Shown: piece after piece, positions 249-49,800 of the stretch
Position numbering within the stretch: position 1 is the first letter of the stretch
Layout of the letters: the number at the start of each line of letters is the position of its first letter
Assembly: GCA_914767715.1 (NCBI GenBank)
Contig: OU612066.1
Coordinates: 18,202,283-18,266,282 of the forward strand
Direction of reading: 5' to 3'
Source: Membranipora membranacea
Lineage: Eukaryota > Bryozoa > Gymnolaemata > Cheilostomatida > Membraniporidae
Length of the DNA: 64,000 nucleotides
Program-made: the position numbers and the translations under genes
Notes under the pieces: model-generated
Told to the model about the DNA's origin: nothing
Database searches by the model: none
What the model saw: the letters and a program-made list of their open reading frames with translations, nothing else

Positions 249-3200
249 ACTTTGTTACCTGCGGCTAACCTACTTCAGCTAGTTGAGGTGGAGGACGCTT
301 GTTGTGACTTCTTACAATCTCAGCTACACCCGAGTAACTCTCTGGGTATATCTGCCTTTGCTGATCTCCACAACTGTAGAGAGCTACTATCCTGTGCCAC
401 CCAATACACCGAACAGCATTTCAAGTATGACTACGATCCTTTCTATTTTTAAGTTAAATGACATTTCTGACCTTCTGTTGATTTCCTAGGCTAATAGTAC
501 TAGGGGCTGGTAAATTGTACGATGGCTATAATCTGGATGAATTGACCTCTAAACAATCTCAATAGGGGAACAAGGCTTAATGGAGCACAGATATCAGTCA
601 GCGAGGCTTGGTTAGACAAAAAAAGTTGACATGAATGTAGCTGAGATCTTCTAATAAAAAATCTCCTTTTGGTTTGAAGATTTGAATCGGTTACTACCTT
701 ATATTGTGAGTCTAGTTTTTAAATATCATGCCTTCTTATAGCCTGTCTTGAAAAGCTTTGTTGTGGGGGGCGGGGGAGTGTCCCCCACAACTAAGCTTGT
801 CAAGACAAGCTAGTCTTTTTATAGTTACATTGTTTTTGTTTTTACAGTGAAGTGATAACACAAGATGAGTTTATGCATCTCAATGTACAACAACTTACAA
901 AGCTTATATCTAGTGACAGACTCTCTGTCAAAGATGAATCTGAGGTAAAGTTCAGCACATAGTGTTCTCAGAACTCATAGCATAGTTAGGGTTGCTCTAC
1001 TTTACTGTTGCATGTTAGTCCTTATTCAGCAGTGTATTTTTAAACACAGATAAAAGTGATTAGGATCTGATCTTTTTTGCGAGTTTTTTTGCCACATTTA
1101 CCTCATTATGTTTACACTGGCAACCAACTGTCTTTCAGTAGCTAACCCAAGCCCATTCATTCAAGTAAGGTGAATTATGTCAACCTTTGAAGGCTTTGAG
1201 AAAGTTGGTAGAGAAATTAATAAGTTAAAAAATTGCTAACTCTGATCTACGATCTACCATCTACTCGTAAATATCTTAACATTTGAGTTGACAGTTAATA
1301 ATCATTCAGCTTCGCTAGACAGTCGTTTCAATCTGTCAGTACACATCTTGTGACCTGTGTGACCTCTGTATGCTTGTATAATATGTCAAAATACTCAGGT
1401 CACACTTAATTGCAGTTTGATGACCATAATTAGACTACACCGACCTTAGGTGTAGACTTTGTCAACAGCACTCCGTTAATTTATTACAATGCACTGCATA
1501 AATATTATCACATAGTAAGGCTGTAACCTTACTCTGTGATACCAAACAGATGGAGACTAGTCCATATTATGCACTTGGGAATGATCAAGCATCAATCATT
1601 ATTGCAGCATCAAATGAATAAGGATGCTTAGAAAACCTTGTAGATGTAAGCATGGTCAGCCAAATAGGGACGTAGTAAAGGATGTTTATACAGAAGCCAT
1701 TATGACTAGTTCGATTTGTTTTCAGGTTTATAATTCAGTATTAAGTTGGGTCCATTATGACCGCCAGAAGAGATCTCAGTATTTCAGCCAAATAATGGAG
1801 CATGTCCGTCTAGCTCTAGTCAGCGAAGAATTTCTATTCACTGTAAGTTTTAGCGGTCGCTTCACAAATCAGTGGGTTCTTACAATCAGAGTGAGCTGTG
1901 GTTTTTAAAACAAATGGTCAGTTTCACTTTGCTCAAGAATATTGTGACAAGACAAATTTGTTCCCAAATCAAATTGGAAGATAGTTAAAAAAGACTTTTT
2001 CAGATACAAAAAAAGTCTCCCCCACAAGGAAACTGCAGCCTGAGGTTCTCTAAGATCCTCCCGCAGTTTTAATAGTACTGGCCTGATCTCTGTTGAATTA
2101 AAAAAAATGCATTGTGGGAACTTTGATACATTGTGCCCTTTCATGCAGTTTCTTGTTCCGAAATTGCTTTATTTCATTTACATTTTTTCCCAATTTCAGG
2201 TTGAGGATGAAGAATTAATTAAAACCGACAGTAAATGCAAAGACTTCCTAATAGAAGCTCTAAAGTATCACCTGAGAAAAGGGAATGATAGCCAGGTGGT
2301 GTCAACTCCTCGCACAAGAATGAGAACACCTATAGGTCTACCCAAGGTGTGGCAGGAATGTCCTGTAGTTTTATCCAATTTGGCTGCATTTAGGGTTGAT
2401 CTCATTCTACTGGTAGGCTGTTGGTGGCTCGAGTGGGCGCAACTCCAAACCCAAGCAAATTGTATCAAAATTGTTCTTTATATCGATTGCATAAAATGAA
2501 GCAGGCTTAAAACTAGAAACATGGGGAGGATGCACCAGTTCTAATCCCCCTCGATTGCAGGGAATATTAATTGTCATTGCAAGGTTGCGCTGTGTATTTG
2601 TCATGTCTAACTATGACTAAGAGAGGGGAAGTATCGCCAATTCTCAAAGTCTATTAATCTCTATGAGTTTGAGAGATTATGATGGATGGCAGGACTAGCA
2701 AGCAGATGGCGTTGATGTAATGCCTGACTTTCTTTTAGGTTTTACTTGTTCTTGGTGGACAAGCTCCTAAGGCTATCCGGAGTGTTGAGGTGTACGATTT
2801 TAAAGATGAGAGATGGAACCAAGTCAGTGAAATGTTGTCTAGGCGATGTAGATGTGGTGAGTAGAATGAAGTACACAAAGGTTTTTTTCCTAGGGTCTTC
2901 CTTGTAGTTTTGAACTTTCCTATTTCATAGTCGACCCAAAACTAAACTAAAACTATAGTGGTTCTGCTGATTATCCCTAAGACAGGGTTCCCTCATGAGA
3001 AAGTATACAGTCCAATGAGGAGTGGAATATTTTAGGCCTTCCTCGCGATTACACTGACACACCACTCACTCAGTGTATGATTCAAGACGAGCCATGGGCC
3101 AAAACTTAGATTTAAGTTTGCACTAAATATTGCTGAAACAAATTCAAGTATTATAGCTAGGGATTTCTTCACGTTACTCGGCTGTTTCAAGCTACTAGAT

Positions 3201-5658
3201 TGTCATAATATTATAGGTGTTGCGGTTGTGAACAATCTTGTGTACGTCTGTGGAGGGTTTAATGGCTCACTGAGAGTACGTACAGTCGATGTCTACGACC
3301 CAGTTAAGGATGTATGGACTACAGTCAAGCCCATGGAGGCTCGTAGGAGTACACTTGGTGCAGCTGTACTTGATAACATGGTGTATGCAGTCGGAGGGTT
3401 CGATGGCTCGACAGGTGAGTTGTACCATCTCAGTTCTAATGCAGTATTTACTTCCACAATTGTGAATTGTGCAGAAATGTTTTAACCGTAATAGACATCA
3501 AAATTTTGTATTTGGCTATCAGCTGCTAGTCATGGACAAAACTGTGCTCTATCTCTGCCGCTAAGTTTAGTAAAAATTTTAATGAAACCAACTACAGTTG
3601 TTTAGGCAATGAGGCACTTCTCTGGTTTTTAGCAAATGGGGAAACACTAGATGATTTTATCTATCGAAGTATCTGGCCCAGTTTTGTAAAATTTCCACTA
3701 ATGTTTGTGATATGTTTGATATGTATTATTACACAGTGTACTCAACTTACTTCAGAAATCCTGTTAGTTTACCCAAGGATTATTGGTCTCCTCAGCCATA
3801 ACTCAATGTAATACCATGTCACATAGTTTAGATGTATATTATAAACAATGATCACTGGCCACATAAATTCAGTTTGAAGTTGCTCGTTCATGTTCATATT
3901 TTATCCAAGAGAGGACAACTCATGTTATGAAAAGATCAACTGAGCAATTATTTATAGCAGATTTAGTTTGAACAGTTTGATACCAGAATACTGTTAATTT
4001 TGCAGGATTGAATAGTGTAGAGTGTTATGATCCAATCACAGATGAGTGGCGGACAATATCCAACATGAGCTCCAGGCGAAGCAGTGTCGGTGTGGGTGTA
4101 GTCAAAGGTAAGTGTGACTGGGAGAGTATCATATATAATATATATATAAAATCACTTCAGGCAGTGACATGAAGTACACTTTCTGAAAAGGTCAAATTTT
4201 GAGATGGTTCTATTGTGCTGGTAAATATGCCATCACTTCAAATATGACTATTGAACTCAGCTTTAAACAAAATACAAACTATCCAATCAGCTAACAGATC
4301 ACTCCATCTTAAAACATCATTATAAATGTATTTGTGAACTGCAAACTGATAATCACAACTAACTATCTATGTTTGTAGAGTTGTTATATGCGGTGGGAGG
4401 ATATGATGGAGCCTCTAGACATTGTCTTGCCACTGTTGAATGTTACAATCCAAAAACGGACACCTGGGCGCTTGTCAGTGAGATGTCATGTCGACGTAGT
4501 GGAGCAGGTAACTAAAATATTTATTGTTAGGGCTAGGGGATATTGAATATTCTGATCAATTTATTCTTGCATTCAACGCTTTCAAGGAAACAAACTTCTT
4601 TTAATAGCTAGAGATGTATTGGCCTGAGTCGCAACAAGTGCCCCTCCCTAGGGACATATCTATGAGACAGCCTAAAAATACCTCAGATGACTCAGTAAAT
4701 TTTATTAGTGTCAAATTTACACATGTAGTATGTACATCAATTATCATACTATCAGCCTGATAAATGGATAAAATCAAAGGTGTTTGTTATACCTTGGATG
4801 TTTGATCTGCATGTATAATGCAATCATCTTATTGTCCATATAGTGTAGGTTTTTTCAGCCCTTTATATTCAATGCGGCCAATAATATTTTCCCCAGGTGT
4901 TGGTGCTGCTGAAGGGTTATTATACGCTGTTGGCGGTCATGATGGACCACTTGTCAGGAAAAGTGTCGAGGTTTACAACCCTGAGCTCAATATATGGACT
5001 CAAGTCGCAGATATGCATTACTGTCGCAGAAACGCTGGTAGGTGCCCTGTCATTGTAACCAAATCACAATTACTTATGTATTACACCATAAAGTTATTAT
5101 ATACTATATATATTATAAAATAAATCTATGTATGAAACTCATAGCCACTACGTCAGTCCAGGATGCTTGATGGAAAACTACATGGAAATCAAAATGGGCC
5201 ATTTGGTGATCAACACACAAGTCAAGCATTCATACATAACTCTTACTGTATTAAAGGTGTTTTGACATAAGCCTTGTTCTGGTTCTAGTGATGTTTTAAA
5301 TTTGTGGTTACTAGGAGCATAGAAAAATTATTAGAAGCATGCACAAAGTATGCACCATGTGCAATTTGTTTACAGATATGGTTGCATAATTTACATGCAG
5401 CTTCATAAAATGAGAACTGTGATAGAAATATCACTGCTTACGATTCTATATTTTACAAGAATACAACCTATGCATTTAATTACAGGAGTGGTTTCTAACA
5501 GTGGTATGATCTATGTGATTGGAGGTGATGATGGCTCCACAAACCTTGATTCTGTAGAATGTTATGATCCTAAGTCTAACACATGGACACTGTTGCATCT
5601 ATCTATGACTACTGGTCGGAGCTATGCTGGAGTCGCGATAGTAGATAAAAATTGCTAA
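249..5658 (+). CDS. Kelch-like protein, KLHL2/KLHL3 type (5' part outside window)
   Basis: Ten exons give 465 codons plus stop: 249-424, 848-944, 1726-1842, 2200-2346, 2739-2856, 3217-3414, 4006-4107, 4379-4507, 4897-5037, 5486-5658. All borders are GT-AG and the frame is continuous. The first four exons encode the end of the BTB region and the BACK domain ([40 protein letters not shown]). The rest encodes six kelch repeats with the GG, Y and W signature, for example [20 protein letters not shown] and [18 protein letters not shown]; the last blade ends [14 protein letters not shown]. The pattern matches KLHL2/KLHL3 more closely than other KLHL families. Such proteins are substrate adaptors of cullin-3 ubiquitin ligases: BTB-BACK binds CUL3 and the propeller binds the substrate. 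The BTB exons and start codon must lie left of base 1. Bases 1-248 look like intron ending in TTACAG. Confidence 0.93.
739..812. repeat. Short foldback element in KLHL intron
   Basis: Two arms of about 31 bases (739-769 and 782-812) are reverse complements with a few mismatches. Each has a CTGTCTTG/CAAGACAAG-type end and an inner run GTGGGGG/CCCCCAC, and the loop is G-rich. It lies in the intron 425-847. A related sequence occurs at 29761-29782 and a shorter one at 45604-45623, so it is probably a degenerate mobile foldback or MITE and not a gene-specific structure. Confidence 0.6.
2373..2465. repeat. Inverted-repeat element, MITE-like, in KLHL intron
   Basis: The left arm 2373-2398 (core CAATTTGGCTGCATTTAG) and right arm 2439-2465 (core CCAAACCCAAGCAAATTG) are imperfect reverse complements, about 19 of 26 positions by eye. 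The same arm motif, roughly ATCAAATTTGCCTGTATTTG followed by GAGTTGC, recurs on the plus strand at 19257, 48608, 51293 and, more weakly, 62469. It lies in the intron 2347-2738. No target-site duplication is clear. Confidence 0.5.
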
Positions 5659-10531: not shown

Positions 10532-13500
10532 CTAGAAGGGGAATCTTTTAGTGAGACTTTCTGTTACATACTTGAGCCTCAGAATATCCAACGCTTTTAT
10601 CAATGCATTCAGCGAAGCATCGTAGCCTGCAAAAAAACACAATGACAAAACATTAAGGCGGACGGCGGTATGACAAAAGACCGAGAGTTCTTTTATTGCT
10701 CAAAACATGAACTATCAAACATGAAATTAACAAGTTAGTAATATCTATGATTTTACGATTTGCATTATTTTTAGGTAGATGTGGTATAACAACAACCTAA
10801 AAATGTTCGCTATGATGAGCGGCTCGGCTTGTCAGCCTGCAAGATCTGCTCAACATGGTTTTGATAGATCGAAACAGTTTCGGCTGACGTAGTCCTCAAA
10901 CTATTCCATTCAATACAGGAGGCAGCTGGGTACACTGGGTGTTAGGTTAATCTGTAGATAACTTACTGTCAGTCCAATTCTTGAGAAGTTCATTTTTAAC
11001 TTCCTCCCGGCTTTTATAAGGTTGAGTAAACTGCTGTCTGACATACTCGATATTGAAATTCAATAGTAAGGATAGCAGCGAGTTAAACTGTTCATCATCC
11101 AGCTGAGTGCACAACCAGTCTTTGATACCATCCGATACTAAAACGAAACACAATTTCTTTTGCATTGCTTACTTACTGCATCATAAATGTCAAGTCAAGT
11201 TTATAATTTCAGATCTCTATCAAGGTTGTCAAAGCTAACATTCATACCAAACTTTAGTGTGAATGGCTTACATTTGTTTGATAATGTAATGCTGGACAAT
11301 TCTGTAGTCTTTAGAGGCTATTTGCTAGGTACATGTAAACTAGACGGGTATACTAACTCGTTATGTGTGATGAAACTATAAGTCACAACATCTCAAAACC
11401 TTACCACCAATATAAGGCACTCCATCTGGATCGATGCGCACAAGGTATGTTCCCTGATTCTGAACGCAGCCTTTTCCACACTCCTGTCTGCCTGCTCGTG
11501 ACAGTACTTTATGAGTAGCTCTCTAAAATACCGATGAGGTGATCACTTAAACAGCCGCAATCTATTGTTGAATGAATTACAAATTTTCCTGATCATCAAA
11601 ATATCAAATCAACAGCAACCGGCCAATGAAAAGTAGTTTGAGGGGGAGAGAGAACCGACATACATACCAAGGAAATCCTGTTAGGACAGTTGAAGAAGCT
11701 TGTCACCATTCCTCCAAGTTTGCTGAATGACTCTTTAGTGATTGATTCTATAGCCTCTAAAAACATAATTACAATAACTAAATTTTCTTGTTCTTGTGGT
11801 TCAGTTCGCAAGTAAGTGTGCATATACATCTTAATCTTAATCAAATTAAATTGATTCGCCTTGTCTCAAGAGGTATATAGACTCTACATATGGAGCGTTG
11901 GTATTGAAACGAGACATCTCTGCTGTATCTGACCGTAAGCTGAAGTACTAACCTGAGACTTTCTCAAGGAGAACAAGAGAATGCTTGTGATTGTAGTCTG
12001 CACAGGTCCGAAGATATATTCTGTTGTGTTTACCGCTGCTTTTCCCTCTCTTTTCACATGAGAGAGTGAACCATTGGTTAGTGTGATCATCAGAGATTAT
12101 TTTGGGTGGGCTGTCAGAATGAGTTGTATAGAATGAAGCCCAGTCGCAGCAAATCCTATGTTTCTCACAAAACTCATGCCTGGCACAACAAGCCAGAAGA
12201 CGGAAAAAGATATACTCATGGTGAAAGTCCAAGTCTCCGAAGTCAAATACATGTTCCCACAAAATATCGCAGACCTCCCGAAAATACTTAGCGTCATCAT
12301 CATCATCATCGCGATATTTAGGAAGCAGTTGGGGAAGATAGAACTCTTCCCCAATGAAGAAAATGAAGTCAAGCTGAAGAATACTCCTAACCAGAGGCTG
12401 ATCCTCAATCCGTAGATGGCTGTACATCTGGTCCATCTTTTGAGAGGCATAGAACTTTTTCAGGTGATGCTCCAGGAGTGTGATATGACCTCTCCCCTCT
12501 AATTGTAACAACCTCCACTCATCTGCTCTCAACCGATCTCTTGTTTTCTTTTCATCAATGGAAACCATATCCTTCATGAAATCAATGAGGAACTGAATGT
12601 TATAGAATATGTAGTAATCAGAAGATACGATGGACTCTTCCTTGTTTCGGACTAAGAATATCTCCCCAATGTCACAAAACTTATTCATCTTCTCATAAAA
12701 CTTGTCTTGAGGGTAGACAGACATATATTTACCGCCGATATCGATGTGGCTCTTGAGCATGAGCTCACATGGTGGGCTTTGAGTGAGCTGGCACTTGTCT
12801 CGCTTTTCTTTTAACCAACACCAGAAGTACACCGGTAATGCGTCAGGAAAGCAGTGATTGACAACTTCTTCAGCGGACAAGAGCAAATGCTTTTTCAAAA
12901 TTTCTATGCCAGTGTCACTCAATTCATCACTGTTTTCGATGGATATTTCACCTCTTTCACTTACGGCAAACTCAATACTTGAATATAAATCTGAGTGCTT
13001 TCTGAGGATTGATCTGTAGTAGCTCATGATCGTAGACTTTTGTTTCTCACTGAGTTCACAGCTTTTGATGTGACTGTGAGTTGCTACCAGGAAAACATTC
13101 TTGATGTTCTCTTCATCCATCACATCAGGTCTTCGAGTTTTTCTACCAACCTCAACATTTGGGTGAATACGATGCATGGAAATATTTTTCAACCAAAATA
13201 TTATTTCCTCAATGCAATGGTCAGGCTTCTCATCCACTCGGTTCCTCTTTTCGGCATAAACAAGACTAGTTTCCTTCGCTCTCTTCCAACTGAATGCGCA
13301 GATGAATACACCATATCTTGGCAGAAATGGCTGATGCATACAATGATAGACCATTTGCCCTGCAAAATCTCGAACTAACAGCTTGAAACAGCTATGAAGC
13401 TTCTTTCTCTGAGTTCTAGGCAAAATTGGTGATGGCTGAGTTGGTCTGGAGCCATGTTCATTGGAGGTATACCTTGAGTTTTTGGCAGAGGCAGAGAAGA

Positions 13501-16500
13501 ATTGATGAACAGGGCTTGCTTTGGACAGAATAAAAATCAAGACTAGGATAGCAAAGATGACAAAGCAGTCATTGAGGTTGTGTAATTCTATACTACCATC
13601 GTTGATAAAGACACCGAACAAAGCCCCAACCACTACACCTGGTAAGTGAACACTGAAAAGACTCTTGGCCAAGTCCATTCTCTCCAAACCTACTGGTTCC
13701 TGTTTAGCAGCAGCGTTTCGGCCAAAAGGAAGGGAGCATGTTCCCATAAGAAAGCAGATGAACACAGTAAAGGGAAATAATTCTGATAAACTCATGCAAG
13801 TATTGCTAACGATGTAGAATCGTGCATACACCAGTCCAAACAGGCTGACCATGAGCAGAACGACTTGTGATGGGCCTGCTTTTTTGTTGATGCTGAAACC
13901 TAGGACTGCCAGGACATTCAGTAGGATCCAGTACCTTAGAACTGGAATGGTTGGTCTTTCTAATGTAAATGTTTTTACAGTACCTGGATAAATTTGATCA
14001 ATGATATTTACGGAGTCTTGAACTGATCTATCCATCTGAACAATAGCAAGTCCTGATGCTATCCCGGGGTTAAGTCCTAATCCTGTCAATGTGCCCCATG
14101 CTACAGCAGTAAACAAGATTGGAGCCATCGCCAGCAAATATTGGCTTTGAGAGCAAGTACCGCCCTGGCAGTGAGCATAGAGATATTTGGCTGCGGATAT
14201 TAAGACAGTATAGTTTATGGTTGCAAACCCCATGCTCAAACGAAGAGCAGTGTCGCTTCGACCGAGGCAAAGAAATCCCACAAAGATGCTGATACAAATA
14301 CTGGCTAGAGGTTGTGCACCGTTGACAAAAGAGCAGATGCATGTCAACATTATAAACTGGCTCATGGTTAATACACGGAGAAGGTAAAATAAGCCAGAGC
14401 CTTTCTCTTTTGCCGCCTGTTCATTCAGGGTCGATGCTACACGATGGGCGATTATCTCATCTGTATCTGTCTTCTCGGCAACTAACTCCCAGTTTTTAGT
14501 ACTTATTAGGTTCTCAGTTACTCTTCCAGTTTCTGGTACTGCACAGGACTGTGTCGGTCGAATAGTTGTGACATCCATCATTTCTGTAGGCTTATGCTCT
14601 GCCTGAAGTGGCTCTCCTATAATGGAAAAAATATATCAAAATATAATATGTATATGCCAAGATTCGTGTAATGGACCAGCCAGTTTGGGCAAACAAGGCC
14701 ACAAGTTTTTGACAACTAAGGTTACAATAATATTATTGAGAATTAGTATGTATTGTAATACCTCAAAGCCTCACCCATACCATTATTTTACTAGGTACGG
14801 TAGGTGTGCGCCTGAAGAAATCAGCGTCGTGGTCAGAATAAAGGTTAGGTATTCCCTTTGGCTCAGATTCAGAATCATTTTTATTATGCAACAGTGTCAA
14901 TGACATATCACAATGACATATGGGAATGTCTCTGCTGTTTGACTTATTTATTCTATCCAGTATGAAACTATGTAAAAATCCGCAGCTTCCTGGACTTGAT
15001 TTTAGTTGAGTTTGATTGAGTTTATGGCTGCTACTAACTTTCAGCAAGGAGTTATTCTTGCTTTCGGTTAAGGGTATTGGGATCTTGGTCATGTATAACA
15101 ATCTTTTATAAAGATGATCATCACTGTATTGGCATAGTTTGTGGCTTAAATACAATCCATAAATGTATTATTATAAAAAAAAGTGCTACACAGATGGATG
15201 TTGCACATGGAAATTCATGAAGTTTGAAGAATACTTTAAGATAAATTTCCTAAGCTATCTTTATTGCTATCATGAAATCTATTATCACAACAGTCAATAC
15301 TTTCATCTGACTGAAAAAACGTTGCGTTGTGACAAGTCATGTGACCTGCAGGGAGCCATCAAAACAAGCAATTGACTGAAATCGAGAGGAAGCATTTTTT
15401 ATCAGGCTATATCTCAGGAAGTTATGCGCATCCATCCTCAAAACTTAACAATATGTAATTTGAGACATTATTGGATATAATGTAAAAGTAGAAGGTGATT
15501 GACCAATTAGCTCAGAAGTTATGAGTGAAAGTCAAGGAGAGAAGCATGTGGGTACCACTACCATGGTAATGCTTATTCTCTTCATCATTACTCTCATTGT
15601 ATGGAGGGTCCAATAACCAGTTGACCTGATGTTTGCTATCTTATAGTGATAACACAAGCATGGATTTTAATTTGACATACACTAATCCTATAAGCTCACA
15701 GGACAGGCACTTCATATGTATACAATAATAAAGACAGAGGCAATAATTTGGAATGACCATATAAGGAGCACGACCATGTTACAAGTACAACACACAATCA
15801 CAGAGTAAGGATAAGCCATAGAGTTATATAAGTATATAATAACTCTATATAAACAGACGTGGACACTTCAATGATAGTTATAGCGCCTGCGGGGGTTTTT
15901 GATTCACTGGAGGGGGGGGGGGGGAGTCATCAATTTGGATATCTGTCAATAATTATATCAGCTACAGTGGCACTTAATCATGCAGACATACCTACCTATA
16001 ATGTGCCATAATTCCTTTTTGTATTTAACCCATAGACTGTTTTCCAACATTTTTCAAATGTCCAACCTTCCAGCTATACACAATTCTATTGCTATTTTTT
16101 GCTAGGAGGCTTGGGTTACGGGTCACCTGGGCTTTTAAAATGAGTTATTTTACATGAATTTACGTGTGACAATTGATAGACAAGGCAGTGCCGGGACATT
16201 TCCAAAATTTGTTGGCCAAAAGCCTAACAATTATCACAGGTAAATCAATATGGTTTAACAGATTTTACAAACCTCGATAAGTCATAGCCTATGCCTCCTA
16301 GCACAAAATGACAAAAATATTGTGTTAAGCTTGAAGATTGGAGATTTAAAAAAGATGGAAATCAGTCCTCAGGTTAAAGCCAGAAAAGCCGAATGTATGT
16401 CTGAATGAAAAATCCCGTTGTAACATAGTATGATAGATACATAATATATAATACATAATATATATAGATATATTGAGTTTTTAGCATCCTGGTGTGCACG

Positions 16501-17066
16501 GTTTTCCCCCAGTGAATAAAAAACCACAGGTATTTTAACTATCATTGAAGTCTCTCCTCTATATATTTACTCTGTGACACAACGGACATATATGTCAAAT
16601 ATTGTCAAATCTATGCTGCATTTACACCGCAGAGTTTCCCATAAAAGATCTCCATCAATTTTTCCCATCATAATTTGCTTTTGTTATAAGCTATCATTGA
16701 GAGCAACAAAAAATCTGACTTTTGTGACAATGTCACAAAACGCAGATTTTTGGTCGGTATGGTAAATCTGCAGTGTAAATTCAGCTTTTGGCATGCAAAA
16801 AGTGACTTAACAAGACAGTTCTAAGACAAGAAGGAATGGTGTACCATACCTGTTAGTTTTCGGATGACACTAGTTTTCCCAGCGGCAGCAGCTCCTACCA
16901 CACAAACAGTGAGATGATGACAGTCCTCCTTCCCGTGATCGATGACATCATTCTGGTGTAGAAATACTGTCTCGATGTTGTATATTCCATCGCACAGCTC
17001 TTCCCCATATACCCATGAGCTTTGTGGAATCAGCGATCGCAGGTATGATAACATTTTCATTTTCAT
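10532..17066 (-). CDS. ROCO-A: multi-pass membrane Roc-COR-Death protein
   Basis: Six exons (17066-16850, 14616-11953, 11756-11668, 11522-11405, 11137-10967, 10626-10532) give 1117 aa. N-terminus MKMKMLSYLRSLIP; an in-frame stop lies upstream. Residues 55-70 hold the P-loop VVGAAAAGKTSVIRK. A candidate switch I, PTEMMDVTTIRP, follows at about 82. Residues about 155-440 hold eight or nine hydrophobic segments, for example ILVLIFILSKA. Then comes switch II, VRDFAGQMVYH (about 487-497), as in Roc domains, and VATHSH (583-588) at the G4 place, lacking the usual Asp. COR-like sequence follows (FCDIGEIF, FLIDFMKDMV, LEGRGHITLLEHHL). The last 88 residues resemble a Death domain (IKDWLCTQLDDEQF, EELLKNW-like core, YDASLNALIKAL). 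Function is inferred: a membrane-anchored GTPase scaffold in death or stress signalling. No LRR or ankyrin repeats are seen. Alternative: a membrane protein whose GTPase halves are no longer active. Confidence 0.85.
15905..15925. repeat. Poly(G) tract in ROCO-A intron 1
   Basis: A run of about 14 G lies in the 2.2-kb intron 1 (14617-16849) of ROCO-A. The rest of that intron is AT-rich, with short AT-dinucleotide stretches near 16435-16475, and shows no exon I can support. Confidence 0.6.
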
Positions 17067-18747
17067 TCTTGAAAACAATGACAGCTCAAAAATAAGATTC
17101 CAGGGGTCCTCAAATTATTTATCTGCAACCAAAGCAAGTTGCTGACAAGTGAGAATGGCAGAGCCAGGTAGGAATCTCCATTACTATCTCGTCTTTGCTA
17201 AGTGAAAAATATTCGTCAATTCATCTACCTTGTGCTGCGAATCACAAACAATTTATGCTTCTGCAAATGTCTAAATAATGTGACCAATTCACGTCATCAT
17301 TCTTTACCATCTTGCGCTATTCCAGCGACATTAACGACATCGATCCGCAAAACAAATATGATTGATGACTTTATGGTCACAAATATAAAATAATATTGGT
17401 TGGCAGAAAAGGATGTGTCAAAATAATATGCCAGATTTGACATTGAAGAAGTCAGAACCGAAATGCCATGATGGTTTTACATAAATGGTTCTTATACTAT
17501 CACCTAGTTCCAAACTGCATCGGCAGAAGATCCATGTTATCGGCCTTTGTGTTACTTTCAGGTCTATACAATGATCAATGTTATTTCTTACACTGGTGCA
17601 TAGTTTGTAGACTGAAGATTATGTGGTTTTACTGTTTTATGTGGTTTTACTGTTTCATCCTGCGGTGGTCACAATGAAGATTTGAAACTAAAAAAAAAAG
17701 AGTGTCAAAATGGCTGGTAAAAGAGTCCATGCATATAAAAAAAGTCTATTGTCAAAGTAGAAAACTTCTATGTTGATCGGTATGTATTCTATCATTAGCA
17801 GGCAATAGACTCTGATATATACATATATGGATTCTGCTTTTATCTCAACCTAGTCTAAGTGCTCAGTTGGTTCCATTGCGAGTAAGTGGCATTACATTAT
17901 CAACCACCCAATTCCACACTTAGACTAATCTCAACCATAAAGCCATACTTGGTTCCATTAGCATTTTGCCTGTGTAAACTGGTAACTTTTTTACGATAAA
18001 GACTTTTAAAATCCTCCCAAGGAGACATTGGTAGAGGTAGTAGCATCACATTTCTCACCCTCAATTTTATCCCTCCATGAATGCTGAGGAATAGTTAGAA
18101 AGCTGTGTATCAAGCCCCGTCATCTTGCTATACGAATTTAGCAAAAACACTCTGCCACCAGAGGGATCAAACTTGTTCTAGCTTGTTATATGTTGCAATG
18201 GGTTGTAAACAAGTTAACATGGTTGAAAATGGTCCTTTGCTTTTGTCTTGAAAATTAATTGATGGTTGACTTTTCACAAGAAGTTGGTTATTAATTTTGC
18301 ATAATGATCTTATTAATTCATACAAAATTTGTACGAATGCTTTTTAGTTGTGCGCCCATTTATCTATATATCTAGATAGGTTAGCGGAAAAATACTAAGA
18401 TTAAGAGTTATCCTATCCTGGCCTGCAGGAAGGCAAAACCCCAAAAGATAACGAGCTTTGACTTTGTTATAAAAATAGATAAAATATGTATATTGAATGT
18501 ATATAATATATTGCTGTGCCCTAGAATGCATGCTTCCTAAATGATGTAATTGCAAAATTTATTTCTCTAAATCTTAACAGGCAATATATACAACAGCTTC
18601 ATATTACCACAATTTAGAAGGTATACCGTGTAAAAAAGGCCAATTATTATCAGCCATAAATACATATAAGAAATATTATGCGACATGAAAAATATCGAAG
18701 AAACACAAACAAAATTTACCACTCACTTATTAACCGGAATCATATTG
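17067..18747. other. Spacer between ROCO-A start and ROCO-B end
   Basis: This contains the ROCO-A promoter region and the ROCO-B 3' UTR. No open frame shows family resemblance. The segment 18407-18460 resembles the downstream flank of ROCO-A at 10043-10130, consistent with a duplicated unit that includes 3' flank. Confidence 0.5.
18558..18563 (-). terminator. Candidate poly(A) signal for ROCO-B
   Basis: TTTATT on the plus strand reads AATAAA on the minus strand, about 185 bases downstream of the ROCO-B stop codon at 18748-18750. Confidence 0.4.
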
Positions 18748-21700
18748 TTAGCAGGGAAATCGTTCAGTAAGCATTTGGGTGATGTCCTGGAGATTCGGAA
18801 GTTCCAGCCCGCGTATCAATGCATTCAGTGAAGCATCATAACCTGTTAAAACAAGGTTACAGAATAAGACGCTGGCATAACAAAAGGTAGGGGCTTATTC
18901 CGCTAACGACAACAATTTTTTCGGAGAATAGATTCCAAAAACTCAAAACAAGGACCTCTTGATTAAAAATTTAAAGTAGAAATATTTATTATTTGACCAT
19001 TTGCTCCTAACTTGCACAGTTATTGTAACACCAAAACTTCAGTTTGCTATCAGGTGTGACAGTCTGTGAACCCTACACCCTAGTTCAAGGACTCAAACTA
19101 TTCGGGGTTCACGGCATTCTATCATCTTGCATTTCCACAGATGTTCAGACTGCAACTATAGACCCAATGATAAACCTAGGCATGACAGGGCAGGCAGGAA
19201 CATTAGCATCAAGACACTTTGGCTAATAATTGTGGGCGATTTAATAGATCAAGTTTGATCAATTTTCCTGTATTTGGAGTTGCTCCTACTCCACTGGTCA
19301 CACTACAGCTGCAAAATTTATCCAGTGATGTAACATCACTGAATTGTGTAGTAACAATGGTGTTATCTTTGATTTACAGTCCACAATCCAAGTCTTTTAT
19401 TGATGAATGCATCAAACTAGGTCCAATTTTGGGTTCGATAATTGTAGCGGTCAATTCGATATTAATACTAATGCTAATAATACTTTTATTAAAAAACATT
19501 CCAACTCAACTCAGATCGACTGTGATTGAGTTTTCAAATAAAACACTGGATTGTGGACTGCAAATCTATGATAACACCGTTGCTACTACACAACTCAATC
19601 GTAACATCAATTTTTATCCGTTTCGATTCAAGATTGCAGGCTGAGTGCCTTCAGTAGAACACTTACTATCAGTCCAATTCTTGAGAAGTTCATTTTTAAC
19701 TTCCTCCCGGCTTTTATTAGGTTGAGTAAACTGCTGTCTAACATACTCGATGTTGATATTCAATAGTAAGGATAGCAGCGAGTTAAATTGTTCATCATCC
19801 AGCTCCGCACACAACCAGTCTTTTATATCATCCGATACTAAAAAAAATAGCTTAACTTTGTTTACTCACTTCTTCATATCAGTCAGGGGGTCATTCAATT
19901 CCTCTCTTGCAGTCAGTTGATGCAACTGAGATTGTTCTATGGTTTGGGCTTCGATTTAGTTGCAGACCTCCACGCAACTCTGTTATTTGCCACTATCTGA
20001 TAGCCATTCAGTGGGTGAGTGAATGAGACCCTAGAAAATCTTGTTACCAAATCTCTCACTCATTGATAGAACTATATATATTGTGAGTGAGAAATTTGAG
20101 AACAAGTTAGTCTACTAATTAAAAGACTAAGTGGGATTGTACGATTGTAGTAATTTGTTTTAAAAAGCATTGATAATTATAATTGAAAGACTCCCCAGGT
20201 TCTTGTAACATTTCAAATTACATATCTTTGTTGAGATATTACACTCTGTAATTGCATCACCCACCCATCAGTAGGAATGGCTCAAGTTTCTTTGATTCAA
20301 ACAAGGTTTGATGACTTGATGCTGGTAAATACCAGTGTCTTTAGAAGACTTAGTGACAGGTTAGCAACACTAAATCTACACGGGTACAACTTATTATGCC
20401 CAATAAAAACATTCAAGCTACCCAAAGACCAAAGCACGTTATAATCAGGCAGTTACCTTCCCTTATGGAAGGCACTCTTTTCACCGTCAATAATTCATGC
20501 CAAGTAGATCATTAAACTTTGTTACCATGCGAATTTGACACAACTTTATCATAAGTAACTGCATGACTATAACATGCTTTGGTCTTTGGGTAGTCTTTTG
20601 ATCTTTGGGTGGTCTTTAAGTCTCAATATCTCAAATCATTACCACCGATATAGGGTACTCCATCTGGATCGATGCGCACAAGGTAAGTATCCTGATTCTG
20701 GACACAGCCTACTCCACACTGAAGTCTTCCTGCTCGTGGCTGTATTTTGTGAGTACTTCTCTAAAATAGCGATGAGGTCAATATTCAGCAGCAGACTATT
20801 GTTGAATTATTTAGCAAATGAGTTGGAAAAAGGTATCAAGCAATAGCAAACAGCAATTGAAAAATAGTTTACAGGGAGAAAACAGAACCTACATACATAC
20901 CAAGGAAATCCTGTTAGGACAGTTGAAGAAACTTGTCACCATTCCTCCAAGTTTGCTGAATGACTCCTTCGTTATTGATTCTATAGCCTCTAAAACATTA
21001 AAATAGCAACGGTAAAGGGCATTGTGGACCGGAACATCTTTTATGTAATAACAAGTTAATTTAATACTAAATAAATAAAGTAAACCACCTTGTTCAAGGG
21101 GGTAGAAAAGTTTTTACTGATGGGCCATGATATTGAAATGCACAGCAACTCAATTCGGTGACTGTGTGATGAATCACTAACCTGAGACTTTCTGAAGTAG
21201 AACAAGAGAGTGTTTATGATTGTAGTCTGCACAGGTCCATAGATATATTCTGTTATGTTGGCCATCGTCTTTCCCCCTCTTTTCACACGAGAGAGTAAAC
21301 CATGGCTTACTGTCATCGTTGAAGAAGTCTCTGGATGTGGTATCTGAATGTGTGGTATAAAATGAAGCCCAGTCGCAGCAAATCCTATGTTTCTCACAAA
21401 ACTCGTGCCTGGCACATCGGGCCAGGAGCCGGAAAAAGATATACTCGTGATGGAAGTCAAAGTCTCCAAAGTCAAACACATACTCCCATAAAATATCGCA
21501 GACCTCCTGAAAATACTTAGCATCATCAGCAGCATCATCTTCGCGATATTTAGGAAGCAGTTGAGGAAGAAAGAACTCTTCCCCAACAAAGAAAACGAAG
21601 TCAAGCTGAAGAATACTCCTAACCAGAGGCTGGTCTTCAATTCGTAGATGGCTATACATCTGGTCCATCTTTTTGGAGGCATAGAACTTTTTCAGGTGAT

Positions 21701-24700
21701 GCTCCAGAAGCGTGATATGACCTCTCCCTTCTAACTGTAACAACTTCCACTCATCTGCTTTCAACCGATCTCTCGTTTTCTTCTCATCAATAGAAACCAT
21801 ATCCTTCATGAAATCGATGAGGAACTGAATGTTATAGAATATGTAGTAATCAGAAGATACAATGGACTCTTCCTTATTTCGGACTAAGAATATCTCTCCG
21901 ATGTCACAAAACTTATTTATCTTCTCATGAAACTTGTCCTGGGGGTAGACAGACATATATTTACCGTCAACATCGATGTGGCTTTTGAGCATGAGCTCAC
22001 ATGGTGGGCTTTGAGTGAGCTGGCACTTGTCTCGCTTTTCTTTTAACCAACACCAGAAGTACACCGGTAATGCGTCAGGAAAGCAGTGATTGACAACTTC
22101 TTCAGCGGACAAGAGCAAATGCTTTTTCAAAACTTCGATGCCGGTATCCTTCAGTTCATCACTGTTCTCTATGGATATCTCACCTCTGTCACTCACGTCA
22201 AACTCAATACTTGAATATAAATCCGAGTGCTTTCTGAGGATCGATCTGTAATAGCTCATGATTGTACTTTTTTGTTCCTCGCTGAGTTCACAGCTTTCCA
22301 TGTGACTGTGAGTTGCCACCAAGAAAACATTCTTGATGTTCTCTTGATCCATCACATCAGGTCTTCCAGTTTTACTTCCAACCTGCACATTTGGATGAAT
22401 TCGATGCATGGAAACATTTTTCAACCAAAATATTATTTCCTCGAGGCAATAATCAGGTCTCTCATCCATCTGGTTTCTCTTTTCTGCATATACTAGGCTA
22501 GTTTCCTTCGCTCTCTTCCAACTGAATGTGCAGATAAATACACCGTAGCGTGGCAGAAATGGCTGGTGCATACAATGATAGACCATTTGCCCAGCAAAAT
22601 CTCGAACCAACAGCTTGAAACAGCTATGGAGCTTCTTTGGCGGAAAATTAGGCAGAACTGATGATTGGTGCATTGGTCTGTAGCTGTGATTATCAGAGGT
22701 GTACCTCGTGCTTTTGGCAGATGCAGAGAAGAACTGATACACGGGACTTGCCTTAGACAGAATGAAAATCAAAACTAGGATAGCAAAGATGACAAAGCAG
22801 TCATTGAGACTGTGGATTTCTATAGAACCACCGTTGATGAAGACCCCGGCCAGGGCCCCAACCACTACACCTGGTAAGTGAACACTGAAAAGACTCTTGG
22901 CCAAGTCCATTCTTTCCAGACCTACTGGTTCTTGTTTAGCAGCAGCGCTTCGACCAACAGGAAGGGAGCATGGTCCTATCAGATAGCAGACGAACACAGT
23001 CAAGGGGAACAACTCTGATACACTCATACAAGTATATCCCAGGAGGTAGAATCTCGCCGCCACTAGTCCAAACAGGCTGGTCACCAGCAGAACAATGTGC
23101 TTTGGGCATGCTTTATTGTTGATGGCAAAACCTAGGATGGCCACCATATTGAGTAGTACCCAGTATCTCAGAACTGGGATACTTGGTCTTTCCAAAGTGA
23201 ATGTTTTTGTAGTCCCTGGGTAAATGTGATCAATGATAGTCACCGAGTCTTGAACTGATTTATCCATCTTAACAATCGCAAGTCCTGATGCTATCCCGGG
23301 GTTGAGTCCTAATCCTGTCAATGTGCCCCATGCTACAGCAGTAAACAACATAGGAGCCATCGCCAGCATATATTCGTGTTGAGAGCAATAACCATCCTGG
23401 CAGTGAGCATAGAGATATCTGGCTGCGGCTGCAACAACAATGTAGTTCATGGTAGCACAGCCCATGCTCATTCGAAGTGCAGTGTCGTTTCTACCAAGGC
23501 AAACAAAACCCACAAAGATGCTAATACAGATGGTGGCTAGAGGTTGAGAACCGTTTACAATGGAGCAGATGCATGTGAATATTACCAACTGGTTCATAGT
23601 TAACACACGGAGAAGGTAGAGTAAGACTGAGCCTTTCTCTTTTGCCGAGTGTTCGTTGAGTTGATGCTACACGATGGGCGATTATCTCGTCAGTATCTGT
23701 CTTTTCAGCCACTAGTTCCCAGTCTTTAATCCTTATAAGGTTTTCAGTTACTTTTACAGCTGCTGGTACTGTAGAGGACTGTGTAGGTCTTATAGTTGAC
23801 ACATCCATCATTTCTGTAGGCTTATGTTCAGCTTGAAATGGCTCGTCTACATTCACAAATACACAAAAATGGTAACAGTATTGTTTGACTGGAACATGGG
23901 GACTGTCAAAATTCCTTACCCAAAACCTAAGGTTAAGAAATGTGGCAGTCCAATGGACTAGAATGATAGATAGATGTTGGTTGCATGCATGGATTGGTGT
24001 GTATGATTGGGTATGTGTGTGTACAATTGGGTGAATTCATGTTTTCAATTGGGTGAATATGTGTATATTCGGGTGTGCGATTGGGTGGGTATGTGTACGG
24101 TCGGGCGGATGTTTGTGTGTATGCGTGGCTAGGTGTGTGTGTGTACGATCGGGTAAGTGTGTACGATCGGGTGGGTGTGTGTATGATTGTATGGGTGGAC
24201 GGGTGTGTGTACTATGGGGTGGATGGGTGTATGAACGATTAGGTGGGTGTGTGTACGATTGGGTGGATGTGTGTGGATGTTCGATTGGTTGGGCTGGATG
24301 TGTGTACGATTGGGTGGGTAGGCATTTGTCAATTGGGTGGTTGTATGAGTAGGTGTATTGCAAGGTAGGCAGGAACATAAGGAGATAGGAAGGTAGTTAT
24401 GTAGATAAGTTTACAGATATGTGTGATGTACATGTAAACCCCACGTCACTGTACATTCGACAAAAAGGCTGTAAAGTTTCTGAATTCAAAGTAAGTGACT
24501 GTCATACGATACCTGTTAGTTTGCGGATGACACTAGTTTTTCCAGCGGCAGCAGCTCCTACCACACAAACAGTGAGATGATGACAGTCCTCCTTCCCGTG
24601 ATCAATGACATCATTCTGGTGTAGAAATACTGTCTCGATGTTGTACAGGCCATCGCACAGATCCTCTCCATATGACCATGTGCTCCGAGGAATGAGCGAT

Positions 24701-24717
24701 CGCATGTGGGATAACAT
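18748..24717 (-). CDS. ROCO-B: tandem paralogue of ROCO-A with a frameshift
   Basis: Six exons mirror ROCO-A: 24717-24513, 23846-21182, 20989-20901, 20760-20643, 19837-19667, 18842-18748. Exons 3-6 have exactly the ROCO-A lengths (89, 118, 171, 95). The order of parts is the same: P-loop GAAAAGKTSVIRK, PTEMMDVSTIRP, membrane segments, VRDFAGQMVYH, VATHSH, COR-like sequence and a Death domain ending LTERFPC. At about 23650-23665 the DNA is two bases shorter than ROCO-A (after AHRVAST), so the frame of exon 1 runs to a stop near 23521. The membrane-COR part is open from 23606 in another frame. Downstream is otherwise intact and highly similar, so this is a recent lesion, an allele, or an assembly error. 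An alternative in-frame ATG lies upstream at 24792 (MSLRPESYHC). The MLSHMRSLIP start was chosen because it aligns with ROCO-A. Confidence 0.8.
19257..19283 (+). repeat. Dispersed repeat copy in ROCO-B intron
   Basis: GATCAATTTTCCTGTATTTG followed by GAGTTGC belongs to the family described at 2373-2465. It lies in the intron 18843-19666. The open frame 19219-19644 that overlaps it is intronic and shows no protein family. Confidence 0.45.
19886..20196. mobile_element. MITE-like element, GGGGGNCTTTC termini (copy 2)
   Basis: The left end GGGGGTCATTCAATT and the right end, read inverted, GGGGAGTCTTTCAATT resemble the ends of the element at 7588-7848. Inside, CTTGTTACCAAATCTCTCAC (about 20038) is inverted against GTGAGAAATTTGAGAACAAG-like sequence (about 20089) across an AT-rich loop, like the inner GAGTGAG repeat of copy 1. 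It lies in ROCO-B intron 4 (19838-20642). Confidence 0.5.
23990..24345. repeat. GT-rich minisatellite in ROCO-B intron 1
   Basis: Many imperfect tandem units have the form GTGTGTACGATTGGGTGG, of variable length (about 16-24 bases), within the intron 23847-24512. All six frames are wide open because the unit lacks stops, so several long open frames here are artefacts. ROCO-A has no such array in its intron 1. Confidence 0.85.
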
Positions 24718-26546
24718 TTTTCTTTTTATTCTTGAAAATGTGATAAAAAAGCGACAGCTCATACAATGATAAGACTCCGGTCTCAAACTCATTATTAACA
24801 ACAGAAGCAATGTGGCTTACAGTTGATCAGGTGCCTTGATCCACCAATAATGTTCGGCTTACTGTACTACATATCACAGAACTAACACTATTGTGACTGT
24901 CAACACACCAAAAGCACCTGTCCTTGAATCGACCACATAAGAATAGTGATTGATGATTTTGTTGTATTGTCACATCATTGGAATAAAACTACGTCACAGC
25001 TGGAAGAGAAACAGATGTCAAAACAAAATGCCAGATTTGACAGTGAACAAACTACTATTAAAATACTATGATGGTTTTAAAGAGATGGATCTAATAATAA
25101 TAATAATACTTACTTTTAACTGAATTTGACAAGAGCCATTCTTCATAAGTTTATGCGAGAGGTTGGTTCATGTCATGTTCAGTTCCCTGTGCTCACTGGC
25201 TTGTGTTACTGTCAGGTGTTAACAATGACTCATGGCTACTGTTATCTTATCTATAGTCATAGCTGTTATGATGTGAATGTAGTAAATTAGTAGCTTTTGT
25301 AAACGGTCATATCATTTACATCACACATAACTTCCTTATACATTAGCATTCACTCCTAATTAGTTTAAGCTGGGTGACAAAGGGCATCACCTACACATAA
25401 AAAACTGACGTTCAAATTTAAGGCTAAAAGTAATGCCAGCCCACTTTGCAAATAAACTGATGTCAAACAAATGTAACAAAGTAGGAGCAAGGAGCATTTA
25501 AAAGCCCAATCAAGCCTGTAAATAAACAGAAAATTCAATGGAAGGCAGAGGCATGGAAAAAAATGGATTAAATTTGTTTTCGACTTGATTAAAACATTTG
25601 GGGCTACCAAGTTTTTAATAGACTGATTAATATAGGAATGCCTTTAAAGGTCGCTAAGCAGGGTTAACCATACAAGACAAATCATTAACACCATGCAATG
25701 CGCTAGAGTCTTTTGCATGCCTGTTCAAATTTTCATCGCATTTGAACAAATAGGGGTCCCTTTGCAGCTGATTAAATAGGCCAATGGTTAGCTGCAGCCT
25801 CAAAAAACATGCCTCAGTTGATGATGCGCGATCTGACTAAATGGATCATCATTCTGAGGCTGAATTAATAAGTTCTGAATTATCAGACCTGCATGAAGCC
25901 GAGTTCACTATATAGATAGAACATTATGATAGCAGAAAGATTGAGATTCATAACAGTGCTCATTGTTTGGGTTTAAGTTATTTTTATTTACACTTTTTAC
26001 CATTTTTTGAAACCAAAAAGTAGGACTGCGAGGCGGCTCATATTATTAGGATGAGGGGAGCATTGATCAGATAATCATTGTGAAATAAGCGTGAAACCTG
26101 CCAAATCGGAGTCAGACATGAACGTAGAGAAACTAATCCGTCAATAAAAGGACACCACAACTGACACATTTCCATTGTTGTGTCTGTGTTGAACTCCGAC
26201 GCAAGAGCAGATTAATTTAATCCAGTAATAAAACACCCAAAAACTGACACAGTTTACTTGTTGTGTTTGGGAGCGATGTGCTACATGCTCTTTAATTATA
26301 CTAGAACTGATATGTATATAACTTTTGAAAGTATTAAATTATTTACATGAGTTCCCCTAAAATTGAGAGCCAGTCTAGTTTTCTGGGATGTTTTGGCAAA
26401 TATCAACAATGTTTCAGCGATTAGACATGTTGAAGTGCTGTCCAAGTGCAATGGCCCTTTTATCAATCATACAGGTGAATTCAGGTGGTTTGATCCAATT
26501 ATATCAATGTGTGTTTCTGATCTGAACTGTCAATATTTAACAAATC
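24718..26546. other. Spacer between ROCO-B start and DDX46 end
   Basis: This holds the ROCO-B upstream region and the DDX46 3' flank. The open frames at 25365-25610 and 26363-26575 have no family resemblance. No RNA gene or mobile element was recognised. A pair of similar short segments near 26125-26180 and 26200-26275 (TCCGTCAATAAAAGGACACC against TCCAGTAATAAAACACCCAA) suggests a small local duplication. Confidence 0.5.
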
Positions 26547-46821: not shown

Positions 46822-49800
46822 ATGGGCGATCCACCACCAGTAAAACAGGAGCTTGAGGGAACAATGAGTGCAGCGCTTATAGAGAAAGCAGAGAAAGAAC
46901 TCGGGGAGAAACCACAATGGAGACAAAGAGATATAGAAGCGCTGAGAGATCTTGTTAAGAAAGATTTAAGTAAGCCATAATAATTACATTCTCTAAAAAT
47001 ATTTGAACTGGCTACTGTATTTGGCACAAACTGCAGTTTAAAATAGCTTGCAGCAACACACACAAGTTTGATCCCTAAAATTAGTAGCCACCTAATCAGG
47101 ATTCTGCAGAGTCTACAAATATGATAACTGAGCTCGTAGACACTCTCTTTTATAACACAACAAGAATCATATAGCCTACTATCGTTAGCTCATCTTGCAT
47201 TGAACCCGTATTATTTCAAATAGGTGTAATTTTGACAGCACTGAGAGACTGTTTTCACACCTGGATAAGCATAGGACTGAGAGCCTTCTCTTGTACCAAC
47301 CACATACCATTTTTGTTGTTACCTGTGTGTTTATCAAATCTTAAACTGACAAATTTTGTGAGTGATCACTTCCATTATTATTATTCAATGAAATCTTGTT
47401 CGTTTTCCTTAGGTCTATACTGCCCTCATGATGACGATGCATTCTTACTGATGTTCCTCAGAGGCAGAAAATTTGATTACGAGCTGGCAGCAAAGCTTAT
47501 CAGGAGGTTTGTATATTTCAGAAAAGATATTATCATAAAATTCTTGCATAAATATTTTTAATTGTTAGAGGTTTCTCTTTAAATTGAATAAGGTGTGGAC
47601 AACAGAATATGATGATATTTTTGTTAGGGGTTCGTAAACTTATAAAAGGACTCATCTAAACTTTATATAAGCTTCCACTAGCCTTTTCATGCTGCTATAC
47701 TGTTGCTTGGTCAAATTGCTAGGCTACCGTAGCTGCTGAAACCACAATTTCATATTTAAATATGGCTGCCCATCACATTGCAAATGTCGACATTTCAACC
47801 TGCTAGTGATCCAAGTGTAGTCTTAATCACGTGATGTCACCAGAGCCCTCCCCAACCCCAAGCATTATTTTTGTCCAACATTGTTTCATTTTAAATGGCC
47901 TTATTTTCAAATACCATTGTGTATGCCGGTACTATATAAGACTGGTGTCACCAAATAACAAAAGAATGACACTTATCAGTTTATGATTGTTTACTCAATA
48001 ACGCTAGAATGTTGATAACAACCCTGTATAACATAGTAACAGAACAGCAAATATCTTGTACCATGTGATCAGTAAAAGTCACGTACCAGTAACAGGAAAT
48101 CAAATCACAGAGGGTCCTTTGGGCATACATTATAGGTATAATAGGATTTTTCATACTAAACTCATTTGAGGGTTTGTCTAATTAGTAATTTTGAGAACAG
48201 CCTTATATCAAATGCTCTTTATTAATGATGCAGATAATTTTAAATCAGTTAGTAAGTATTGTATCAAACTCAGCTCACAGACATTGTCATTGTCTGCCTT
48301 CGTGATGGTACCAACCCATGCATGTCTTCCTCTTCCTAGTAGCCGATCCACTTAACATTCCTTGTGACACAGGGGTGGCAACATAAGTCACCAGGTATAC
48401 GGTGAACCAGGTTTCATTATGACTATGAAAGTCCCAAGTCCTTGTTTGAGAAATATCATCTGCCTACCTTTTCCTATCTACTGTATTGTGCTTATCCCCC
48501 TGACTACATTACTGAACCTACTTCCACTCGCTCGCTTTCAACATTAGTACAGTTGTCACATAAAATACCATGGGATATCATTTATTAGCCTCGACTCAAT
48601 CAAGTATGATCAAATTTGCCTGTATTTGGAGCTGCCCCCTTCAAATCACAAGTTGAATGGGAATAAGCAGCTACAAATTGCTTCATTCTGTGATGTTATG
48701 ATCGGTAGCTTGGCGATGTTGTTGCCTTCCATGGTTCGACTTTTAATTTGCATTAACATGTACATCTGCGTAATAAATCTAGGGAGGACCCATAGCCACT
48801 TCTTCATGTTCATGACATGATCCTCTTGCCTTTCTATCTGTGAAACCGGTAAATGATATATTATAGGGAATGGAAGGATGTTATTTTTTATTATCCATTC
48901 CCATGGTACAGTAGAAATTTGAAAAGGGCAATATGGGTTAAATTCCCATTTTTTTCCGAGTTTCAGGTTTTAACTTCGTCCTGATTATAGTAAATTTGAT
49001 ATCAAAGAGGCGTTGTAGGTAATTATTTTATAGTCAATATTCTGGCGTGCCTTAATCCTTCTTTGCCTTCCAGACCATCACAACTTACAGATGTGATGTC
49101 ACAGATATCCGGAGCTTCAGTAAAATTCTTAACTTGGCTTGTATAAACTTAGTTGTATAAATGATGACTCTGGAGGTGACCAAGGTGCTGATATGACAGG
49201 GGAACCAGTTAAGGATTGCTGCATCTTTCTTTAAATTATTAGGTATTATGAAGTGAGGGTGGAATTCCAAGATGTTTACAAAGTGTTCCGACCATCCGCT
49301 GCAAAGGACATGTATGAGAAGGGGGTCTTTACAAGGTTACCCAGACTCACTGATACAGATCCACAGGCTATTTATACCAGACCTGGTAAACATATATTAT
49401 TAGAATCTTAAAAAATTGTTTCAATTTTCTTGACAAAACTTCAAGAAAGTTTGGATAAACCCGCTTTAAAACAACCAAATTTCGCTGCGAACTCTCTACC
49501 TACAAGATTGCAATGATACATATGGTGGGTTTCAATGAGATTTGTAATACAACAGCTTAGCGAACTGTATTCAAATTGTTCACATCAACAGTTATTTCTC
49601 TCACGTTTTAATTCTCCATTTTCAGCACTCTGGGATCCAGCAGTTCATCCTATGGACACAATGCTCAAGTCCAACATAATGCAGATAGAAAAACTTGTGA
49701 GGGTGAGTGACCACTTAAGACTTCACAACCGTCTCCAAAAACTATGAATTGACAGGACTGTTTGTTACCTTCGGTATTTTATAGCACAGTTATAAAGTAG

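Follow-up and report, generated by a model that had tools for sequence, protein, structure and literature searches.

Can a GTPase domain be interrupted by a polytopic membrane domain and still serve as one switch? The question is raised by ROCO-A, a gene on the minus strand of a 64,000-nucleotide stretch of Membranipora membranacea DNA (assembly GCA_914767715.1, contig OU612066.1, positions 18,202,283 to 18,266,282; this whole stretch is the window, and coordinates are counted from its first letter). ROCO-A encodes a Roc domain that is divided between switch I and switch II by a membrane domain and is followed by COR and a C-terminal Death-domain match, an architecture in which we have very high confidence. 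The fuller statement, that the product is a membrane-embedded Roco protein whose Roc domain is split in the interswitch by a conserved polytopic domain and which acts with COR and a Death domain as a receptor-like switch, is in our judgment reasonably probable. Its computed parts are the gene model, the position of the insert, conservation, Roc-COR identity and the cytosolic location of the flanks by charge.

ROCO-A comprises six exons with GT/AG borders, joined in frame to give 1117 residues with a single terminal stop:

16850–17066, minus strand: exon 1, carrying the first Roc half (beta1, P-loop, alpha1), perhaps preceded by a 5′ exon; identified from translation, splice frame and a paralogue copy
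11953–14616, minus strand: exon 2 (2664 bases), carrying switch I, the membrane domain, G3, the rest of Roc and COR; matched by the paralogue and 12 database relatives
11668–11756, minus strand: exon 3, its peptide identical in the paralogue by eye
11405–11522, minus strand: exon 4, its peptide conserved in the paralogue by eye, with a weak acceptor
10967–11137, minus strand: exon 5, first part of the Death domain
10532–10626, minus strand: exon 6, end of the Death domain and stop

The 2664-base exon is free of stop codons, and the membrane part, DFAGQ and COR lie in one exon, as the original prediction had it. The splice 16850/14616 reads KTSVIRKLT followed by GEPLQAEHKPTEMMDV (at codon level, KTSVIRKLT-G-EPLQAEHKPTEMMDV) and scored 8.5 at the donor and 11.6 at the acceptor using rough consensus tables of our own; in the same tables the acceptor scores for exons 3, 4 and 5 were 3.6–5.5, with exon 4 lowest at 3.6. 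Including exons 3 and 4 brings the product to exactly 1117 residues. The first ATG (17066) is ATA in the paralogue, whereas an in-frame ATG four codons on (17054) is common to both copies, and the true N terminus is therefore uncertain. An 84-base block, 76% alike, lies about 350 bases upstream of both P-loop exons (17416–17499 and 25016–25099, minus strand); because it is alike in both copies, an upstream ROCO-A exon is possible, and the block could be a promoter or an exon lying upstream, whether 5′ untranslated or coding.

The Roc motifs fall where they had been predicted (at about residues 58, 82 and 489):

16869–16895, minus strand: G1/P-loop GAAAAGKTS, residues 58–66
14570–14590, minus strand: candidate switch I/G2 PTEMMDV, residues 82–88, aligned to MbRoco2 and CtRoco
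13355–13399, minus strand: beta3 and G3/switch II, residues 479–493 (DFAGQ at 489–493), aligned with MbRoco2
12845–13399, minus strand: second Roc half (end approximate), matching Roco proteins and Ras folds by structure

Three features of the Roco (Roc-COR) family are present, namely a P-loop GxxxxGK(S/T), a Roc profile match and a G3 DxxG. After removal of the insert, ROCO-A matched Pfam Roc as a single stretch (profile positions 2–96, 36.5 bits, cut-off 27); with the insert kept, a 1048-residue version lacking exons 3 and 4 scored 27.6 bits in two stretches separated by approximately 387 residues, and the first Roc half fused to an unrelated tail scored 18.3 bits. The Roc domain of ROCO-A is thus not uninterrupted; an uninterrupted Roc is usual, yet to our knowledge is not part of the definition of the Roco family. 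When the insert-free sequence was ranked against 334 PDB sequences, the top four were Roco proteins, followed by Cdc42 and Ras. The joined flanks matched 4wnr (M. barkeri Roco2) with an expect value (E) of 2.8e-5 and 3dpu (C. tepidum Roco) with E 0.0017, without a large gap at the join, which places the insert between two strands, the one following switch I and the one running into DFAGQ. By this alignment the insertion point is the beta2-beta3 hairpin of Roc, the interswitch in the naming of Ras-type folds. According to a review (PMC6337361), the length of switch I varies among Roco proteins, and conservation is strongest in the DXXG region; given this difference in variability, an insertion between the two would probably be tolerated.

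The same layout is found in a second gene, ROCO-B, upstream of ROCO-A on the same strand:

24514–24729, minus strand: P-loop exon of ROCO-B
21182–23846, minus strand: large exon of ROCO-B with switch I, membrane domain, DFAGQ and COR, its end set by analogy with ROCO-A

Between the two genes, protein identity is 88% in the P-loop exon and DNA identity is 84% in the block holding the large exon; blastn at E 1e-3 returned no further common block between the P-loop exon and the large exon. Exon 1 had a ratio of nonsynonymous to synonymous substitution (dN/dS) of 0.26 (0.257) and the switch I linker one of 0.14 (0.142; 61 codons from E74); the insert, at 0.29, is evolving more rapidly than the second half of Roc (0.14) and than COR with the part after it (0.13). 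Separately, the last Death-domain exon of ROCO-B (18840–18754) has diverged far more (59%) than the preceding exon (91%).

Homologues with the same insertion, for which the original prediction had called, were found among database proteins. Scoring of 7993 candidates gave 11 relatives of ROCO-A at 32%–66% identity, 10 of which carry a membrane segment ahead of DFAG; the truncated P0011 retains the last membrane helix alone. Searching with a profile of the membrane part by itself added a twelfth, P0012, in which a middle stretch of the membrane domain is missing and G3 is EFAGQ, either a decayed copy or an assembly fault. The insert is therefore present in 11 of 12 relatives, once incompletely, and is 27%–60% identical to that of ROCO-A in the ten measured. 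Since it is conserved in these relatives and in the tandem paralogue at the dN/dS given above, the insert is no local accident, and on these comparisons its presence by chance is excluded. P0004, P0009 and P0010 start after switch I, so the insertion point is seen on the DFAG side only. In P0001, P0003, P0007, P0008 and P0012 the alignment ends just before switch I, at the ROCO-A intron position, which fits an exon border common to the relatives. None of the 12 relatives bears a protein name or a Pfam label. In the tree ROCO-A and ROCO-B group with P0001, the deeper order being open. Alignment A3 combined ROCO-A with 8 of the 11 relatives that had been aligned by then, and A4 excludes P0011.

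Two alternatives are very improbable. The P-loop exon might be part of some other transcript, with the large exon forming a separate gene, a possibility for which the 2.2 kb intron and a gene model built from genomic sequence could speak. Against such a mis-join speak the frame and the splice scores, and the Roc match is continuous across the exon border and the insert; the same exon pair recurs in ROCO-B with no other common block between, and relatives stop aligning at that very border. P-loop, membrane part, DFAGQ and COR thus appear to form one gene, as had been proposed. Alternatively, the membrane segment might be an optional intron (an exitron) whose splicing yields a soluble, canonical Roco protein. 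Both flanks do lie in one exon, and ROCO-B contains one weak in-frame donor/acceptor pair, but ROCO-A has no in-frame pair above our threshold, and purifying selection acts on the segment, which is shared with nearly all of the relatives.

The region between switch I and DFAGQ is composed as follows:

14396–14569, minus strand: N-side linker, residues 89–146, with a conserved W..V.EKTDT...I..RV motif (alignment A1) and a low predicted local distance difference test score
13484–14395, minus strand: membrane domain, residues 147–450, with nine long helices and a broken one, ten crossings favoured
14150–14170, minus strand: loop between helices 3 and 4, predicted non-cytosolic, with a C-X4-C pair seen by eye in 8 of 12 rows
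13991–14071, minus strand: broken helix NPGIASGLAI..., a tenth crossing or a re-entrant segment
13400–13483, minus strand: C-side linker, residues 451–478, of low model confidence

A hydropathy scan gave 8 strong hydrophobic segments before DFAG in ROCO-A and 7–10 in the remaining 11 rows of A1 that bear the insert, and an AlphaFold2 model contained the nine long helices and the broken one, which is strongly hydrophobic in just 3 of 12 rows (P0004, P0005 and P0009). When ten crossings were assumed, lysine plus arginine were more numerous inside than outside in all 12 rows, as opposed to none of the 12 (two ties) when nine were assumed; the rows counted are related to one another and leave out P0011 and P0012. 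Ten crossings with both flanks in the cytosol give the best fit, short of proof. The eight or nine hydrophobic segments, the even number of crossings and the cytosolic flanks of the original prediction are retained, with eight crossings replaced by the ten that charge favours. Many glycines of the membrane domain are invariant or nearly so (12 rows, again leaving out P0011 and P0012). Comparison with known families (aquaporin, the major facilitator superfamily and others) gave no confident transporter, channel or receptor match, and the domain looks like an orphan family.

The membrane domain could be merely an anchor in an otherwise identical architecture, flexible linkers letting Roc-COR-Death act as in soluble Roco proteins. 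Low model confidence in the linkers on both sides leaves room for this role, which the faster evolution of the insert and the want of a confident family match also favour. However, one helix would suffice as an anchor, whereas here the conserved domain spans about 300 residues, with its many glycines and its exact interswitch position, and the N-side linker is itself conserved. We regard an anchor-only role as rather unlikely.

Roc identity is extended by what follows the insert:

11954–12844, minus strand: COR and the part after it, assigned by structure (approximate start)

COR comes directly after Roc. When the post-insert half was searched by structure, Roco entries filled the first 19 of 50 rows, and this half superposes on LRRK1, LRRK2 and CtRoco. 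The Roc profile and the structure match thus uphold the claim that a true Roc domain is divided by a polytopic membrane domain, with a Roc-COR fold after it. The predicted Death domain fared less clearly, as a C-terminal match was found in exons 5–6 at 22.4 bits, just below the cut-off of 22.6, and the 1048-residue version gave 17.8 bits.

That borderline score is one of several observations that weigh against a membrane-embedded switch. The gene model was built from genomic sequence alone, and the large exon of ROCO-B is two bases short near 23663 relative to ROCO-A, which breaks its frame and reflects either a recent lesion or an error in the assembly. Scanned alone for Pfam Roc, exon 1 gave no match and the large exon scored 12.5 bits. 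Roc halves swapped in order still scored 30.2 bits in two stretches, above cut-off, and what favours the join is therefore a gain of about 6 bits, a match in a single stretch and the match to PDB sequences. A profile of the post-insert part returned LRRK2 Roc matches at E 0.5 or worse and nothing better, and Pfam COR had no match at E up to 10 in the 1048-residue version. The structure match covers the post-insert Roc half by itself. Switch I is visible in part of the relatives, as several reads begin after it. The sides assigned to the loops depend on helix borders that we set from the AlphaFold2 model, and the low model confidence of the linkers (about 58 and 28 residues) weakens the case for tight coupling of membrane and GTPase.

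G4 also departs from the GTPase pattern: it is THSH in ROCO-A, without the aspartate, and THxD occurs in 3 of 14 rows (P0003, P0004 and P0008), which on sequence would weigh against ordinary GTPase activity. The split Roc might then no longer bind or hydrolyse GTP, leaving a pseudo-GTPase that serves as a membrane-bound Death-domain scaffold. The absence of the G4 aspartate in 11 of 14 rows, ROCO-A included, agrees with this, as does a G3 other than DFAGQ in 4 of 14 (DFAGH in P0008 and P0011, DFAGD in P0010 and EFAGQ in P0012). On the other side, the P-loop and switch I of ROCO-A are intact and the P-loop exon is under purifying selection, and we consider a pseudo-GTPase scaffold unlikely. Because the G4-G5 motifs of Roco proteins vary, according to the review (PMC6337361), the G4 mismatch was not taken as excluding ROCO-A from the Roco proteins, and the same variation lessens its weight for a scaffold. 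The functional alternatives and the membrane-embedded switch are partly compatible.

How might such a switch operate? Past switch I, the ROCO-A chain exits the G domain, passes through the membrane domain and returns ahead of switch II. The two Roc halves would meet in the cytosol as one G domain, with the ends of the membrane domain feeding the two strands that link switch I and switch II. Because both ends feed these strands, an event in the membrane involving a ligand, a lipid or voltage would shift the interswitch, and the nucleotide state or the Roc-COR contact would be altered. COR would pass the change to the Death domain, which would recruit Death-domain partners. Direct coupling from membrane to GTPase is favoured by the exact position and the conservation of the insert and by the conserved EKTDT motif of the linker; we hold it tentatively, as a close call. 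It is possible, if somewhat more doubtful, that ROCO-A represents a new class of receptor-GTPase, in which a ten-crossing domain of unknown fold lies in the Roc interswitch, the G domain comes together across this membrane module, membrane events set the GTPase state directly and output is through a Death domain. Should the two Roc halves form a single site, the membrane domain would be hard-wired into the GTPase, between its switch I and its switch II; a membrane event would then be coupled directly to a Ras-type switch, without a separate receptor or exchange factor, which would help with the open question of how Roco proteins such as LRRK2 are controlled at membranes.

By Roc sequence and predicted Roc-COR structure, ROCO-A belongs with the Roco proteins (LRRK1/2, DAPK1, MFHAS1, CtRoco and MbRoco2), sharing the Roc P-loop, switch I, DxxGQ and COR fold and, with the DAPK1 group, a borderline Death-domain match, but differing in the membrane domain inside Roc. 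No leucine-rich repeat or kinase was matched in the exons scanned, nor a DAPK1-type N-terminal kinase with ankyrin repeats in the 1048-residue version, and in both cases upstream exons may exist. Heterotrimeric G-protein alpha subunits likewise have a domain inserted in a Ras fold, but theirs is helical, soluble and located between alpha1 and switch I, unlike the beta2-beta3 site of ROCO-A. FeoB, Miro, atlastin and GIMAP combine a GTPase and a membrane part in one protein, with the membrane part after the G domain, whereas that of ROCO-A interrupts it. In a Toll-like receptor, the membrane helix lies outside Roc.

Published Roco sets were compared within the available text of each source. Death-domain Rocos of Trichoplax and Roco/TIR proteins of Aplysia resemble ROCO-A in that they come from animal Roco genes that have expanded and that carry Death domains or have partners in immunity, and that text does not mention a membrane domain within Roc for either (PMC4104024, PMC9334734). 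Rocos of Ectocarpus and other brown algae have membrane-protein-like parts or long Roc insertions, but the membrane part is C-terminal and the insertion is reported as non-conserved ROC sequences (PMC4104024, PMC11378527). The nearest in outline, as far as these portions go, are the Trichoplax Death-domain Rocos and the brown-algal Rocos with membrane-like C termini. A membrane domain inside Roc is absent from the Rocos described in the available portions of PMC6337361, PMC4104024, PMC11378527, PMC9334734 and PMC8195603, which does not establish novelty in print.

Elsewhere in the window, a weak match to the CRAL/TRIO N-terminal domain (20.6 bits, cut-off 23) lies at 47175–47558 on the plus strand, and Kelch repeats (Pfam Kelch_1, 72 bits) at 3081–3482 on the plus strand mark an ordinary neighbouring gene.
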